Shown here piece by piece: positions 5,515 through 11,777 of a stretch of 25,594 nucleotides of DNA. How positions within the stretch are numbered: position 1 is the first letter of the stretch; every line of letters starts with the position of its first letter. The stretch covers positions 1 through 25,594 of the IMG/VR virus record IMGVR_UViG_3300025102_000256; one strand, written 5' to 3'. This DNA is from a virus. Position numbers and translations under genes: made by a program. The notes under the pieces are model-generated. The model searched no databases, had not been told where the DNA came from, and saw only the letters and a program-made list of their open reading frames with translations.

Positions 5515-5632
5515 TGAGAAAGAATTAGATATTATTGTGACACAATTATGGAAGTCACGTAAGAATCAAGGTGAACCTTTGGTCGAACCATTGTATCAAA
5601 AACTCTTGTCTATACAAAAAGAGAAATTCTAA
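5498..5632 (+). CDS. Hypothetical small protein, 44 aa
   Basis: Short ORF MNLPIDEKELDIIVTQLW... ending with a Lys/Gln-rich helix and the stop TAA at 5630-5632. It overlaps the upstream gene by 17 nt in another frame and fills the space exactly up to the terminator at 5639-5660, which supports it as a real last gene of the replication operon. It is predicted to be mostly helical, with no known motif. The stop codon overlaps a late-promoter-like motif (CTAAATAAATA, 5629-5639). Confidence 0.65.
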   Translation: MNLPIDEKELDIIVTQLWKSRKNQGEPLVEPLYQKLLSIQKEKF

Positions 5633-5639
5633 ATAAATA
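5632..5639 (+). promoter_or_regulatory. T4-type late promoter motif AATAAATA
   Basis: This 8-mer matches the NATAAATA consensus of T4-like cyanophage late promoters (TATAAATA in T4, read by the gp55 late sigma). It overlaps the stop of the upstream gene and lies 21 nt before the 5661 start codon. Transcription would begin roughly 6 nt further on, inside the loop of the adjoining hairpin. Confidence 0.6.
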
Positions 5640-5660
5640 ACCCCTATAGGGGGTTTTTTT
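5639..5660 (+). terminator. Intrinsic terminator closing the replication block
   Basis: Hairpin AACCCC (5639-5644) / GGGGTT (5650-5655) with the short loop TATAG, followed by an uninterrupted T tract to 5660. The T tract touches the ATG at 5661. It would stop transcripts coming from gp43-mazG. The left arm lies just downstream of the late promoter motif, upstream of the expected late start site. Confidence 0.8.
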
Positions 5661-7184
5661 ATGTCAATAACAATTCCAACAACAGTTGATAAAGCATGGA
5701 ATGATCTTTTTAGAGAAGGTTTATCCACGGATGAGTATAGTTATTTGGTATTTGATGTTAAAAAAACCGAAAGCGATGCTTCAAAAAAAGTTCAGGTTTT
5801 CATGAAGGTATATGTTCCTGAAAATAAAAGAAAGACTGCTACTGAAAATGTAAAGAAAGCAATGGAGGATACGGGGTATACAGTAGAGCATAGGAAATCC
5901 AAAGGTTCTAATATACCAGAAATAGATATAGTAGTAACTGAAAAAAATGTTATTCGTGTTCAGTTTAAACCAATCAAATCTTCAGGATCTGGTGGTGGGT
6001 CAAAACAAACTACAATTCAGGAAAGTACATCTTGCTTATATAATTCACTTCGTTTTCATGTACATCCGAATAATAAATTAACTCCTACCATGACTCTTAC
6101 TACAGATGATATGGAGAAAGCAGCGAAATGGATTGATACTCCAGATGCTACTTTGGAACAGATGATTGAATTTGCTAACCAAGATCCTGATTGGAAAGAA
6201 GTTTTTGTAGATGGTGCAAATGCATTGTATAATAAAGTAAAACCTGCTGCTTCAAATGATTTTATGTTTGTTCGTGGAGATAAAGAAATAGATGATGGTG
6301 TAATAAAAAAAGCTTTTGCTCAATGTAAAGCTTCGTTAGTACACAAAGAGTTAAAAAATGAAGACAAGTGGAACCCATCAGATATTTGGATAGTTAGTAA
6401 GGGTGCCAAGACTGAAATAATTAACAAATTAACACCATATGGTGTGAAAAAAACAACAACTACAATAGAAGTATTTAATGATGCACTATCACAATTTTTT
6501 ACTGATGAAAAATTGATGGGAGTATCTTTAAAAAAGACTGGTGGTACTGGTACAGTAAAGGTTGTGAATGCTGACACCCCACAAGAGAGAAAAGCAAGTC
6601 TTGGGGTTGAGTTTAAGAAAAAGAAATCAATAGATATGTTAGTTTATGATAGTAAAACAAATTTTACTGGTGAACATGCTCATAAGAGATGGCCAATGGA
6701 TGTATACATTCAGTATGGAACTGGAAAAAAGGATAACATACAGTTAAGAAATTTTGGTGGTGATAATAAAGGTGATTGGAAGTTAGAACTTAAAGGCGAG
6801 CATGCTGCTATGGGTAAGATTCAAGGTAATGTTGCTAGGTTTATATTAAAGCATACAGGATTCACAGGTGTACCTGACGAACCAGAATGGTCTGCTTGTG
6901 ATCCAAAGAAAGCTACTGCTAAACAAAAATCAGATATCACAAAAGAAATATATAAATTATTAGATACTTTTGGTGCAAATGGATTTGATAAAAGTGACGG
7001 AGATCAAATGATGGGTGAGATTGCTGGTAAAAGACAGTCTTGGAGGTATAGTAAACTATCAGGACTTCGCTTTTTAGAATATCTCTGTAAAGAAAATGTG
7101 AATGCAGATATGGCAATCAAAGAACTATATCTTTTTGGTGGATCACAAGCAGACCACTCATCAATATACTACAAGTATTCTTAA
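5661..7184 (+). CDS. Conserved-type hypothetical protein, 507 aa, possibly nuclease-like
   Basis: Not firmly recognised. It is a soluble, lysine-rich protein with no membrane segment. The N-terminal third has an alternating hydrophobic/charged beta pattern ending in EIDIVVTEKNVIRVQFKPIK, then a flexible Ser/Gly linker (SSGSGGGSK). The D...(Q)xK spacing is reminiscent of PD-(D/E)xK nuclease cores but is not decisive. The middle has KWNPSDIWIVSKG, and the C-terminal part has a Gly/Lys-rich stretch (NFGGDNKGDWKLELKGEHA) and ends in YYKYS. It is first in a unit with the ligase-like and nucleotidyltransferase genes, overlapping the next by one base (TAATG), and is probably expressed from the late motif at 5632 with a very short leader whose only SD-like feature is the G run of the hairpin. 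Confidence 0.85.
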   Translation: MSITIPTTVDKAWNDLFREGLSTDEYSYLVFDVKKTESDASKKVQVFMKVYVPENKRKTATENVKKAMEDTGYTVEHRKSKGSNIPEIDIVVTEKNVIRVQFKPIKSSGSGGGSKQTTIQESTSCLYNSLRFHVHPNNKLTPTMTLTTDDMEKAAKWIDTPDATLEQMIEFANQDPDWKEVFVDGANALYNKVKPAASNDFMFVRGDKEIDDGVIKKAFAQCKASLVHKELKNEDKWNPSDIWIVSKGAKTEIINKLTPYGVKKTTTTIEVFNDALSQFFTDEKLMGVSLKKTGGTGTVKVVNADTPQERKASLGVEFKKKKSIDMLVYDSKTNFTGEHAHKRWPMDVYIQYGTGKKDNIQLRNFGGDNKGDWKLELKGEHAAMGKIQGNVARFILKHTGFTGVPDEPEWSACDPKKATAKQKSDITKEIYKLLDTFGANGFDKSDGDQMMGEIAGKRQSWRYSKLSGLRFLEYLCKENVNADMAIKELYLFGGSQADHSSIYYKYS

Positions 7185-8377
7185 TGGCAAACGTAACACA
7201 GTTAAAACATTTAGAACACCTTGAGGATGAGATGCTCAACTATGGAGTTGATGGTTGTAAAGCTGCTGTCTCTTTTTTAAAAGAACTTCGTAAGATGTTA
7301 GGTCAACAGGATAATGATGGTTTCATGCAAACCAAATGGGATGGAGCACCTGCTGTTATCTGTGGAAAACACCCTCTTTCTGGTATGTTCTTTGTTGGAA
7401 CTAAATCTGTATTCAATAAGAACGATCCTAAAGTATGTTACAGTGAAAAAGGTATTGACAAATATTATCAAGGAGACCTTGCAGAAAAACTTAAATTTTC
7501 TCTTCGTTATTTTAAAGAATTAGATATTGAAGGAGTAGTTCAGGGTGATCTTATGTTCACTGATAGTACATTAAAAAAAGAAACTATCAATGGTGAATTA
7601 CTTTATACATTCAAACCTAACACTATTACATATGCAATTCCAGTAGATCATTCTATTGGTAAGGCAGCAGGTACTGCAAAGATTGGTGTAGTGTTTCATA
7701 CTCATTACACAGGTGATGAACTTGAATCAATGCAAGCAAAAGCTGGTGCTGATGTTACTGGATCTAAAGATGCTTTAGTAATTAAAAATGATACTCCAAT
7801 GGATCGTGTTGGGTTGTCTTCTAGTGAGGAAAAAACATTCGATGCTCATGTATCAAAGATTGAAAGTATGTGTAAGATATGTGGAGACTTCCTTGATGAG
7901 TTGGTTAAATTTTCTGGTACAAAGGGTGATCTTAAGTGGCATGTATCATCTTATATAAAACAGTTCTTTAATAGTGAGATTAGAAATGCTCGTAGTATAG
8001 GTAATGTTGATCATGCATTAGATAACCTTACAAATTTCTATCATTTAAAAACTGCCAAGATGCTTGATGCTATCAAGACTCCTAAAAATAAAGCAGAAAA
8101 AAGGAAGTTAGTATACGATAGTGAGAATTATCTACAAGATAATAAGACAAAGTTTACAGCAATGCTTTCTCTTTACAAAGAGATTCAACACGTTAAGCAG
8201 ATGGTTATAGATAAGTTAGATCATCTTGAAACCTTCAAGACATTTATTAAAACTGAAAAGGGATATAAAGTAACTGGACCAGAAGGTTATGTTTTGCACA
8301 AAGATGGTGATATGATTAAGTTTGTTAATCATCTTGAGTTTGCTTATAATAATTTCACAGTATCAAAGGACTGGTAA
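7184..8377 (+). CDS. Putative nucleotidyltransferase of ligase type (KxDG), 397 aa
   Basis: Motifs in the order of covalent nucleotidyltransferases (DNA/RNA ligases, capping enzymes) are visible. A motif I-like TKWDGAPAV has the candidate nucleotide-accepting Lys at 51. A motif III-like EGVVQGDLMF lies at 116-125, a IIIa-like IGVVFHTHY at 167-175, and a motif IV-like DALVIK at 196-201. A convincing motif V (KxK) is not obvious, so the protein is divergent or not a ligase. The C-terminal half is helical and Lys-rich, and might bind nucleic acid. It sits between the 507-aa unknown and an NMNAT-like gene, sharing one base with each, so the three are likely made together. The function is an inference from motifs; a nick-sealing or end-adenylating role is possible. 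Confidence 0.8.
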   Translation: MANVTQLKHLEHLEDEMLNYGVDGCKAAVSFLKELRKMLGQQDNDGFMQTKWDGAPAVICGKHPLSGMFFVGTKSVFNKNDPKVCYSEKGIDKYYQGDLAEKLKFSLRYFKELDIEGVVQGDLMFTDSTLKKETINGELLYTFKPNTITYAIPVDHSIGKAAGTAKIGVVFHTHYTGDELESMQAKAGADVTGSKDALVIKNDTPMDRVGLSSSEEKTFDAHVSKIESMCKICGDFLDELVKFSGTKGDLKWHVSSYIKQFFNSEIRNARSIGNVDHALDNLTNFYHLKTAKMLDAIKTPKNKAEKRKLVYDSENYLQDNKTKFTAMLSLYKEIQHVKQMVIDKLDHLETFKTFIKTEKGYKVTGPEGYVLHKDGDMIKFVNHLEFAYNNFTVSKDW

Positions 8378-8949
8378 TGTCAGGATTAATATGCAAAAAA
8401 TGTTACGTTACCTTTGGTAGGTTCCAACCACCTACTACAGGACATAAGGAGAACTTTGCTGGTGTTAAACGTGCTGCTGGAGGTCATGACTATCGAATTT
8501 ATATTTCACAAAGTGTAGACACTAAAGGAACTAACCCATTACCACCAGATATAAAGTATAATTACATGGTTAAAATGTTCCCTGAACACAAGGGACATAT
8601 CTTTAGTGGACCAAGAGATCCTGTTTCTATCATGCAAGATTTAATGATGGCAGGGTATGATGAGGTTATCTATCTTGTAGGATCTGATAGGGTTAATGCT
8701 ATGGGATTCCTCCATAAATACAATGGAGAAGGAAAGGACTTCCACTTTAGGAAGATTGAAATAGTATCTTCTGGTAGTAGAGATGCAGATGGTGACACGT
8801 TTGCTATATCTGGTACTAAAATGAGAAGAGCAGCATTTGCTGGTGACTTTAAAACTTTTAGGAAAGGTATTCCAACATCATTAAAAGATCCAGATTGCAA
8901 ATCTTTAATGGAAGAAATTAAACAACGATTACCTATAAAATTCAAATGA
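8377..8949 (+). CDS. NMNAT/cytidylyltransferase-like nucleotidyltransferase
   Basis: Class I (HIGH-type) nucleotidyltransferase fold. The N-terminal GRFQPPTTGH (14-23) gives the T-x-G-H phosphate-binding motif, VGSDRV (101-106) is the usual mid-domain strand, and ISGTKMR (144-150) is the ISxTxxR signature. At 190 aa it has the size of a single catalytic domain such as archaeal NadM/NMN adenylyltransferase; phage copies are often labelled cytidylyltransferase. The reaction would be transfer of a nucleotide monophosphate from an NTP with release of pyrophosphate, possibly NMN to NAD. The start ATG overlaps the previous stop (TAATG), and its end overlaps the next gene by 4 nt. The fold is secure; the substrate is not. 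Confidence 0.9.
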   Translation: MSGLICKKCYVTFGRFQPPTTGHKENFAGVKRAAGGHDYRIYISQSVDTKGTNPLPPDIKYNYMVKMFPEHKGHIFSGPRDPVSIMQDLMMAGYDEVIYLVGSDRVNAMGFLHKYNGEGKDFHFRKIEIVSSGSRDADGDTFAISGTKMRRAAFAGDFKTFRKGIPTSLKDPDCKSLMEEIKQRLPIKFK

Positions 8950-9308
8950 AAACATTCCGAGAGTTCGTATCTGAAGGTAAGAAAAGAGGATTGTGGGATA
9001 ACATCCATGCTAAAAGAAAGCGTGGTGAACCTAAAGCAAAGAAAGGTGATAAGGATTATCCAGAGACTCTTAAAGTTGAAAGTGCTTGGCAACGCAAGGA
9101 AGGTAAGAATAAAGAAGGTGGTTTGAACGAGAAGGGACGTAAGTCTTATGAACGTGAGAATCCTGGTAGTGATTTGAAGAGACCACAACCAGAAGGTGGT
9201 CCCAGAAAGAAATCATTCTGTGCTAGAATGAGTGGTGTTAAAGGACCAATGAAAAAAGATGGTAAACCAACTCGCAAAGCACTCGCATTACGAAAGTGGA
9301 AGTGTTAA
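8946..9308 (+). CDS. Basic protein with capsid-targeting-like N-terminus and CARM...RKWKC tail
   Basis: 120-aa strongly basic protein. The first 11 residues, MKTFREFVSEG, closely resemble the T4 internal-protein capsid-targeting peptide MKTYQEFIAEA, which gp21 protease cuts after Glu10; here Glu10 is also followed by a small residue. The body is Lys/Arg/Gly rich (GLWDNIHAKRKRGEPKAKKG). The C-terminus (KKSFCARMSGVKGP...LALRKWKC) is a module I recall from many unrelated phages, with two Cys that could bind metal. It could be a DNA-binding internal head protein, which is an inference. It overlaps the upstream nucleotidyltransferase by 4 nt (ATGA) and abuts the next gene. Confidence 0.85.
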   Translation: MKTFREFVSEGKKRGLWDNIHAKRKRGEPKAKKGDKDYPETLKVESAWQRKEGKNKEGGLNEKGRKSYERENPGSDLKRPQPEGGPRKKSFCARMSGVKGPMKKDGKPTRKALALRKWKC

Positions 9309-9642: not shown

Positions 9643-9933
9643 ATGAAAAATTTTAAAAAGATAAGAGAACAAGCACTTCGTCAACAGGTTAGACAGACTG
9701 AAGTTTTCTCTGAAGGTGATCATATAATGAATTCTAATACAGGAGACAAAGGAGTTATAAAAAGGAAGGGTGGTAACTATGTTATTGCTATTTCAGAGCA
9801 TGGACAGATGTTTCGTGCATGGATAAAGGATATTAGACTCATCAATTACGATGAGAGTATAAATAAAGAAAGAAAAAGTACTATCTTCACACATGGAAAG
9901 GCAAAAACCAGTCAACAGTGTTCAACACAATGA
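9643..9933 (+). CDS. Small beta-rich (SH3/KOW-like) hypothetical protein, 96 aa
   Basis: Start chosen at the ATG one base after the previous stop; an in-frame GTG at 9604 would lie far inside the upstream gene. The N-terminus MKNFKKIREQALRQQ is basic and helical. The middle (EGDHIMNSNTGDKGVIKR to WIKDIRLI) reads like a compact SH3-like barrel with the GD...G.I.RKG.NYV pattern of KOW-type folds, which often bind nucleic acid or protein. The last 20 residues are polar and probably disordered. It overlaps the following gene by 41 nt in a different frame. Function unknown. Confidence 0.75.
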   Translation: MKNFKKIREQALRQQVRQTEVFSEGDHIMNSNTGDKGVIKRKGGNYVIAISEHGQMFRAWIKDIRLINYDESINKERKSTIFTHGKAKTSQQCSTQ

Positions 9934-10660
9934 TGAGTATTCGAAAGCACTGATCGAATCGTACTCCAAGTGGATGGGTGGAACAGGTTTCCAGCAATCC
10001 GAACCAATTGCTCTTGCCGAGGATGGAATTCCTGCCGAGCAGAAGCAAGGTAGTGGTGAAGGTGGTGGAGAATTTGAGACCCCTATTGGTAAGGTTCCTG
10101 CAGTTGAGAAGGATGAGTCAACATCTATCCCTGAACTACAGAAGAAAGGTGGTGAAGATAACTTCACAATCAAAGATCCAAAAGCAAATGCTGGACTACC
10201 TGATCCTGCTACAAATTTACGTATTGGTGCTGGTGTTAAGCAGTCTCATGGTGCTGCTATTAGAGATGTAACCAAGGTTGCTGCAGAAGAAGTAGAACAT
10301 GTTGTTGAGAAAGAAGAGTGTTGTAAGAAATGTGGTTCAAAAGACCATGTAACAAAAGAATGTAAAGCAACTAAAGAAGAAGTAGAGACCTATCAGTGGG
10401 ATGTAGTTAACGAAGCATTAGAAATTCTTGGTGAACTAACTGAATCAAAGTATCATGTACGTGGTGCTAAACTATCAGATTTAAAAGAGAGAACAGAGAC
10501 TACTACACAGAGACTGTTTAAGTATAGTAAAAGATTACAAGAAAAGAAAGCAGCAAAGGATTATGATGGAGATGGTAAGGTAGAGAGTGGTAAGGATGAG
10601 TACTTTGGTTCCAAAGATAAGGCAATCAAAAAAGCAATGGGTAAGAAAGCAAAAAAGTAG
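9893..10660 (+). CDS. CCHC zinc-knuckle protein with DxDxDG tail, 255 aa
   Basis: Largely disordered Gly/Glu/Lys-rich protein. Residues 144-157 form a canonical zinc knuckle, C-x2-C-x4-H-x4-C (CKKCGSKDHVTKEC), flanked by a Glu-rich helix. Around 168-215 is a helical segment, and the C-terminus carries KDYDGDGKVESGKDEY followed by a Lys-rich helix; this DxDxDG calcium-loop-like tail recurs in several proteins of marine T4-like phages as I remember them. The N-terminal region contains ALIESYSKW, with an L-I-E/S site that could suit the gp21 prohead protease. The zinc knuckle suggests single-stranded nucleic-acid binding. The start at 9893 overlaps the upstream gene by 41 nt; the next in-frame Met is residue 28. 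Confidence 0.8.
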   Translation: MERQKPVNSVQHNDEYSKALIESYSKWMGGTGFQQSEPIALAEDGIPAEQKQGSGEGGGEFETPIGKVPAVEKDESTSIPELQKKGGEDNFTIKDPKANAGLPDPATNLRIGAGVKQSHGAAIRDVTKVAAEEVEHVVEKEECCKKCGSKDHVTKECKATKEEVETYQWDVVNEALEILGELTESKYHVRGAKLSDLKERTETTTQRLFKYSKRLQEKKAAKDYDGDGKVESGKDEYFGSKDKAIKKAMGKKAKK

Positions 10661-11183: not shown

Positions 11184-11777
11184 ATGACATTACCAAAGGA
11201 GGTTATCCTTGAGGCACTTAAGTGTTGTAGGGATGTTTATCCTAATGAAAAAGATTTTCTAGTAAGCAGGAAGATTGCAGGACATACCATTCTTGCAGTA
11301 GAAGGAACAAATGAAACAACAGATTGGATTACTAATCTAAAGTTTCTTATTAAACGTGACGATTGTCACAGAGGATTCAAGAACAATGCTAACAGGACAC
11401 TAGCAGAACTAGTGGTAGCATACGAGGGATTGAATCCAGAGAGAAAACTTGTTATAGCAGGTCACTCTCTTGGTGGAGCAACCGCAACATTAATTGCAGA
11501 CTTATTATGGGAGTCAGGCAATACAAATATTGCATTAGTAACTGCTGGATCACCCAGACCAGGTGGACGTAAGTTAAGAAAGAGGATTAAAGATCTTGAA
11601 CATCTTCGGTTTGTGCATGGTGATGACATTGTTCCAGGGACTCCTCCTTGGCTTGCTGGCTATGTACACACTCATCCAGTTGTTAAATTAGATGATGAGA
11701 ACGATACCAGATTTGATGGTGTTGCTGATCATAACATAGGTGACTACTATGATGCTGCAGTGAAGTACTATTCATGA
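11184..11777 (+). CDS. Class 3 lipase-fold hydrolase
   Basis: Alpha/beta hydrolase of the fungal-type lipase (Lipase_3) group. Landmarks appear in family order: EGTNETTDWITNL (40-52, the oxyanion-side G-T...DW..N motif), CHRGF (61-65, the HxGF motif), nucleophile elbow GHSLGG (93-98, Ser95), TAGSPRPGG, HGDDIVPGTPP (145-155, catalytic Asp 147 or 148), and ADHNIGDYY (His183). The triad therefore looks complete. At 197 aa it is compact, with no signal peptide or membrane helix, so it would act in the cytoplasm or be carried in the virion. It could cleave membrane glycerolipids or polyesters. It lies 24 nt downstream of the basic-protein cluster with no clear SD. Confidence 0.9.
   Translation: MTLPKEVILEALKCCRDVYPNEKDFLVSRKIAGHTILAVEGTNETTDWITNLKFLIKRDDCHRGFKNNANRTLAELVVAYEGLNPERKLVIAGHSLGGATATLIADLLWESGNTNIALVTAGSPRPGGRKLRKRIKDLEHLRFVHGDDIVPGTPPWLAGYVHTHPVVKLDDENDTRFDGVADHNIGDYYDAAVKYYS

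Follow-up and report, generated by a model that had tools for sequence, protein, structure and literature searches.

Enzymes packaged in the head of T4-type phages (Alt) and NMNAT in cyanophage virions are both already known. In T4, the first 10 residues of the internal protein IPIII suffice as a capsid-targeting sequence (CTS), residues 4 and 7 serving targeting, residues 8 and 10 allowing processing, and cleavage occurring after L/I-X-E (PMC9026906). The NMNAT-like proteins of cyanophage virions have been known since 2010 with their entry route and role unexplained, and a T4-type tag is a testable route. Phage RNA repair sets combine a ligase, a kinase, a HAD phosphatase and a Pol-beta nucleotidyltransferase (NTase) (PMC7824862). 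Here we analyzed a three-gene module at positions 5661 to 8949 of IMG/VR virus record IMGVR_UViG_3300025102_000256 (positions 1 to 25,594; the whole stretch of 25,594 nucleotides is termed the window). It encodes protein 1, a protein of the Pfam family DUF6267 with ligase-type nucleotidyltransferase motifs (protein 2), and an NMNAT/cytidylyltransferase-like protein (protein 3, termed NT).

We favor, with a probability of roughly 0.45, a reading in which a late operon is built around the trio, and its products would be loaded into the head, ejected with the DNA and then process nucleic-acid ends early in infection. Head packaging of the set is fairly likely. A head-packaging signal and published virion detection, both overlooked by an initial annotation of this DNA, recast the function of the set; late transcription is backed by the promoter, and loading by the tag together with virion presence in relatives.

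The three open reading frames (ORFs) lie on the plus strand, protein 1 at 5661..7184 (507 aa; phrog_1462), DUF6267 at 7184..8377 (397 aa) and NT at 8377..8949 (190 aa), and are joined by single-base TAATG overlaps at 7184 and 8377, as the initial annotation had described. The overlaps may keep the three products at a fixed ratio, as it had proposed. The start of a fourth gene, encoding a DUF6321 protein (8946..9308, plus strand), overlaps the end of NT through ATGA. The late-type promoter that had been proposed was located as a T4-type late promoter core, AATAAATA, at 5632..5639 on the plus strand (published cyanophage consensus NATAAATA; PMC2984593). TAAATA was found at -40 to -18 of protein 1 in 59 of 63 non-redundant loci compared to 1.5 expected in shuffles, and upstream of DUF6267 and NT in far fewer (8/110 and 16/103 loci, respectively), indicating that the promoter mainly drives the whole operon from protein 1. 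With this core before protein 1, the module would be transcribed late, as are T4-type capsid-targeted internal proteins. An intrinsic terminator (AACCCCTATAGGGGGTT plus a T run; 5639..5660, plus strand) of the form CCCCTATAGGGG-T7 directly follows the core and touches the ATG of protein 1, and its 3' arm, AGGGGG, sits in a Shine-Dalgarno-like place and may act as such. In mapped cyanophage relatives the module is placed between gp41-helicase/mazG and gp61/nrdA, so the suggestion that it lies away from the replication genes survives only in that terminator and late promoter part it from the upstream genes.

A different arrangement was seen at loci L003, L098, L156, L163, L164, L166, L022, L161 and L016, where TAAATA lies inside the loop of the intrinsic terminator 5' of protein 1 and the terminator 3' arm, GGGAGG, resembles the protein 1 Shine-Dalgarno sequence. 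Early read-through would halt there, and late transcripts, initiated in the loop, would escape. The window differs in that its promoter is just upstream of the hairpin and not in the loop (5632-5660).

The nearest isolates were Vellamovirus cyanophages, e.g., Syn1 and S-RIM44, with approximately 74% identity in DUF6267 and 62% in protein 1. Searches of phage records by tblastn returned 468 records for DUF6267, 540 for NT and 52 for protein 1, and the gene order protein 1, DUF6267, NT, SH3 was seen across the approximately 160 loci compared. Hits in genome contigs, the source of the non-cyanophage relatives, were taken as probable phage contigs and not as cellular genes. At loci anchored on protein 1 with room for its neighbors, NT was downstream in 57 of 57 and DUF6267 adjacent in 44 of 57; anchored on DUF6267, NT was fused or no more than 400 nt away in 47 of 60 and protein 1 was adjacent in 20 of 63. 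Fused ORFs of DUF6267 with NT and of NT with SH3 exist, and a single profile, PHROG 455, unites DUF6267, NT and the small SH3-like domain. The trio is a real conserved operon of T4-like marine phages, in support of the view that it is one module, although in some lineages protein 1, and likewise DUF6267, can be lost or replaced. Occurrence of the genes apart, which would speak against the module, was seen only in part: protein 1 was absent or too divergent at many DUF6267 loci, and a short DUF6267 was found outside the module in two genomes.

This short DUF6267 paralogue (approximately 295 aa) lies at 221406-222290 in S-SCSM1 and 58890-59777 in S-CREM2, and it is absent from the S-CREM2 virion table. 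For S-PM2 (AJ630128; L002 5998-7777) the record gives DUF6267/NT as two ORFs divided inside DUF6267, and this division resembles a frame break; unbroken fused relatives are found at L041 and L061.

The capsid-targeting rule was applied as the pattern M-x-x-F-x-x-F-L-x-E/A (slash, cleavage site), with aromatic residues at 4 and 7, L/I/V at 8 and Glu at 10, tolerating starts one residue shorter or longer, with T4 IPII as the positive control and a stricter version for counts by gene class. A capsid-targeting-like start was present in 67 of 74 NT+SH3 proteins (MKKFSAFLIEAE, MKSFLQFLKEAA, MRFRQFIIEAV and others). By the stricter pattern, 58 of 124 NT genes at viral-contig loci were tagged compared to 7 of 1196 other genes, and at non-cyanophage loci 17 of 35 DUF6267 and 12 of 22 NT genes compared to 13 of 326 others, the tagged other genes in both samples including some module partners. 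In three complete phage genomes the tag was found on 2-3 of 716-923 ORFs each, with NT always among them. Tagged DUF6267 proteins of non-cyanophage relatives are exemplified by MYSFKQYLNE/AKNTHLEHLED; the spacing from the CTS Glu to HLEH in tagged DUF6267 was 4 residues in 16 of 21, its commonest value, and 60 of approximately 155 untagged ones had a Met 4-5 residues ahead of HLEH, i.e., they start where the tag ends in tagged ones. Protein 1 of a further non-cyanophage relative (L259; MLSFRTYLREAAD) was tagged as well. The window's fourth gene begins with MKTFREFVSE/G, which fits the T4 rule (F4, F7, V8, E10). Since only this gene at 8946 fits the rule here, we infer packaging of the window's trio from its relatives.

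NT has been found in the virions of S-SM1 (as T4-GC190; PMC3037559), S-SCSM1 (PMC9602691), S-SZBM1 (2 peptides; PMC9146016) and S-CREM2 (3 peptides; PMC10665884), and, as reported in proteome work that cites the finding, in those of a fifth cyanophage, S-CBWM1. The S-SM1 protein has the N-terminus MKKFSAFLNEAE, which is of the capsid-tag type. A protein 1 homologue, S-SCSM1 ORF90, carries a virion-protein annotation but no tag, indicating that entry without a tag of its own is possible.

NT contains the motifs PTTGH and ISGTKMR, in agreement with the TxGH and ISxTxxR signatures first noted, and their G, H, S and R were invariant in 10 divergent homologues. The Pfam model CTP_transf_like scored above its cut-off in three NT homologues and a PHROG cytidyltransferase was matched with E 9e-64, while NT was far below cut-off for the equivalog NMNAT models TIGR00482, nadR and PRK01153. 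Membership of the NMNAT/cytidylyltransferase (HIGH) superfamily is supported by these motifs and profiles, and nicotinamide mononucleotide (NMN) is the likeliest substrate.

The KxDG signature reported for DUF6267 is KWDG at residues 51-54 (motif I), and it is followed by QGD at 120-122 (III), HTxY at 172-175 (IIIa), EGxV at 367-370 (IV) and K379 (V). KWDG, the Q and D of QGD, HTxY, EGxV and K379 were all invariant in 81 homologues, with the ligase order kept. In the predicted structure (predicted local distance difference test, pLDDT, 90.8) KWDG is at a strand end, a helical insertion lies between IIIa and IV, and the strand placement fits the motifs. Comparison by hhalign with phage RNA ligase 1 (Rnl1) gave P=0.0011 over motifs IV-V, in a match of 19 columns with 20% probability, compared to P>=0.12 for controls; comparisons with Rnl2 and T4 DNA ligase were uninformative because the true ligase families miss each other too. 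No Pfam ligase family matched, and Foldseek matches to carbonic anhydrase (template modeling score about 0.1) were judged noise. We describe DUF6267 as ligase-like, and do not place it inside the ligase superfamily.

Protein 1 also gave a confident model (pLDDT 90.9). A fold search linked it to proteins of P-HM1, S-RIM14, S-RIM8, P-SSM3 and P-TIM68 (E 1e-10 to 1e-21; 13-18% identity), and on these models its relatives extend beyond the reach of sequence search. Residues D241, S289-x-K291, K103 and E121 were invariant in its homologues, and the invariant motif KW(N/S)P(S/A)DI(W/Y)...G(V/I/F)SLK may be read as resembling that of PD-(D/E)xK nucleases. Other proteins in the slot before DUF6267 carry D..SxK motifs, and one of them, a capsid-tagged protein directly 5' of DUF6267 (L264:2320-3321), matched a type II restriction enzyme model (E 1.4e-9) and is a candidate injected endonuclease. 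The REase_II match was confined to this different slot protein and was not seen for protein 1, whose model did not match a PD-(D/E)xK fold in the fold search. Fold matches in PDB and viral libraries were mainly to the Pol-beta superfamily (cGAS, Cid1, RelA/SpoT and Tas1), with PDB E-values of 0.04 or worse; the canonical DxD signature of Pol-beta NTases is not in protein 1, and hhalign against the Pol-beta domain gave P 0.26. The nuclease-like character originally proposed thus gains from the restriction-enzyme-like slot protein of one relative and loses by the weak Pol-beta matches; protein 1 may be nuclease-like, on its motifs and slot partners, or a Pol-beta-like NTase, on those fold matches. 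Profile searches of PDB with the protein 1, DUF6267 and NT sequences returned nothing useful, and Pfam, NCBIfam and PADLOC assigned a function to neither protein 1 nor DUF6267. No significant homology was found between protein 1 and other cyanophage and pelagiphage slot proteins (P 0.12). We rejected mutual replacement of protein 1 and a Pol-beta NTase, since L067, L080 and L086 contain both and in L074 both were matched.

In some relatives additional enzymes accompany the module. A Pfam ADK adenylate kinase with a T4-type capsid tag is encoded between DUF6267 and NT at four non-cyanophage loci (L249:1239-1823, L256:6182-6757, L080:4464-5045 and L085:7471-8031; E 1e-37 to 1e-40), and a HAD-type phosphatase with a capsid-targeting N-terminus adjoins DUF6267 in L273 (6436-7041) and L274. 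A Pol-beta NTase (GSxxT...DLD) is fused ahead of NT in some relatives, and S-CREM2 gp156, listed in the virion table, matches NTP_transf_2. We read the set as a repair kit because these partners parallel the phage RNA repair sets.

In the favored reading, the trio would be transcribed late, made by coupled translation and loaded into the prohead core, steered by a T4-type capsid-targeting sequence that the prohead protease would remove after Glu10. Because the window's clade keeps the tag on the fourth gene only, entry of the trio would depend on a complex or on another signal. The set would be ejected into the new host alongside the phage DNA, where DUF6267 would form an enzyme-adenosine monophosphate (AMP) intermediate and seal nucleic-acid ends, protein 1 would cut or trim ends, and AMP transfer by the NMNAT-like enzyme would most likely yield nicotinamide adenine dinucleotide (NAD) for the ligase or the cell. 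We infer the ejection, the ligase and nuclease activities and the substrate. A more specific version is doubtful: DUF6267 would be a ligase using NAD+, the NMNAT fused or next to it would rebuild NAD+ from the freed NMN and ATP, adenylate kinase would recycle AMP in some phages, and this self-recharging end-repair kit, held in the head and injected, would repair the incoming genome or tRNAs of the host ahead of any phage gene expression. Several results weigh against head-loaded end processing. None of the window's three trio proteins is tagged, the fourth gene (8946-9308) being alone in the module in this respect, and a virion proteome for the window's clade was not found in the literature. 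No report of DUF6267 in virions was found, and it is absent from the S-SZBM1 and S-CREM2 tables. The Rnl1 match is short, and Foldseek with the confident DUF6267 model found no ligase; of the ligase-like character first ascribed to protein 2, the motifs and their order hold, and a ligase fold is not supported by this fold search. Protein 1 resembles, weakly, Pol-beta enzymes by fold and not a nuclease. Co-purification is a possibility that the authors of the proteomes raise themselves.

This last caveat, given by the authors of two proteomes, leads to another explanation, in which the proteins are late-made but not injected, stick to CsCl-purified particles and act in the producing cell. The low peptide numbers in S-CREM2 and S-SZBM1 and the untagged trio of the window would fit. 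NT was, however, seen in five phages by several groups, the detected proteins bear a rare T4-type targeting sequence with a protease site, and the tag is found on NT, DUF6267, protein 1 and partners; we regard mere sticking as clearly unlikely. Somewhat unlikely, though with more in its favor, is that the packaged NMNAT merely sustains host NAD+, perhaps against NAD-depleting defences, with DUF6267 and protein 1 as passengers that have other jobs. Of the components, the NMNAT-like protein was seen most frequently in virions and is the most widespread (540 phage records compared to 468 and 52), and NAD regulation was put forward by the S-SCSM1 proteome authors (PMC9602691). Nevertheless, NT is only weakly similar to true NMNATs (TIGR00482 and nadR being far below cut-off), an NMN-producing partner was not identified in the module, and the fusion or proximity of DUF6267 to NT and its own capsid tag mark it as a partner and not a passenger. 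The tagged restriction-enzyme-like protein and the other D..SxK proteins before DUF6267 would also suit an attack on the host, in which an injected nuclease and helper transferases degrade or modify host DNA, RNA or a defence signal, and T4 itself has Alt in its particle and injects an inhibitor of restriction. A ligase and an NMNAT are unobvious as weapons, and protein 1 itself is no more than a putative nuclease; we consider this reading highly improbable.

Downstream of the fourth gene, the window encodes a small SH3/KOW-like domain protein (9643..9933, plus strand; fold name from sequence pattern alone). In most relatives this SH3-like domain is joined to the C-terminus of the NMNAT domain; here it is a separate ORF. 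The label "ribonucleotide reductase alpha"/NrdB, widely used for this small protein, was rejected, as it looks like a propagated misannotation. It is followed by a phrog_4359 protein (9893..10660, plus strand), of the same family as the virion-detected S-SCSM1 ORF92 and S-SZBM1 139. A protein of 197 aa containing the lipase-type motif GHSLGG is encoded at 11184-11777, near virion-protein genes; S-CREM1 is reported to have a lipase-like protein in its virions (PMC9964418).

With DUF6267, a Pfam family that is uncharacterised although hundreds of marine phage genomes encode it, as its constant partner, what seemed a lone "NAD gene" becomes part of a multi-enzyme kit that would be delivered as infection begins. 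If the favored reading is true, injected nucleotidyl-transfer enzymes would join the short list of packaged phage enzymes, DUF6267 would have its first biochemical hypothesis, and the phage would begin infection carrying its own nucleic-acid or NAD repair kit. What is new is the T4-type targeting rule on these proteins, DUF6267, protein 1 and NMNAT as a packaged set, and a ligase-like DUF6267; the literature searched did not name DUF6267, and there "capsid targeting" and "cyanophage" came together only in a T4 review.

Compared to known systems, the set would resemble T4 IPI, IPII, IPIII and Alt, which are late-made, carry an N-terminal propeptide (aromatic 4/7, L/I-X-E cleavage), enter the prohead core and are ejected, Alt sharing with it that an enzyme is packaged in the head. 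T4 differs in that its set consists of an ADP-ribosyltransferase and internal proteins of small size, one of which inhibits restriction, whereas the set here is a multi-enzyme nucleotidyl-transfer operon of which some members, unlike T4 internal proteins, have no tag of their own. Phage NAD salvage (NadV with NMNAT-Nudix or NMNAT-kinase; NARP) shares a phage-encoded HIGH-superfamily NMNAT-type transferase; NadV, Nudix and Adps/Namat partners were not identified in the module, where the partner is instead DUF6267 and the NMNAT-like domain carries a capsid tag and has an SH3-like domain after it. Phage RNA repair (Rnl1/Rnl2, Pnkp, HAD phosphatase, RlaP Pol-beta NTase) has similar partners near a ligase-type enzyme in some relatives, and DUF6267 is like Rnl1 in motifs IV-V. 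To our knowledge, no packaged RNA repair set has been described; here the kinase belongs to the adenylate-kinase family, an NMNAT-like protein is the constant partner, and some components bear capsid tags.

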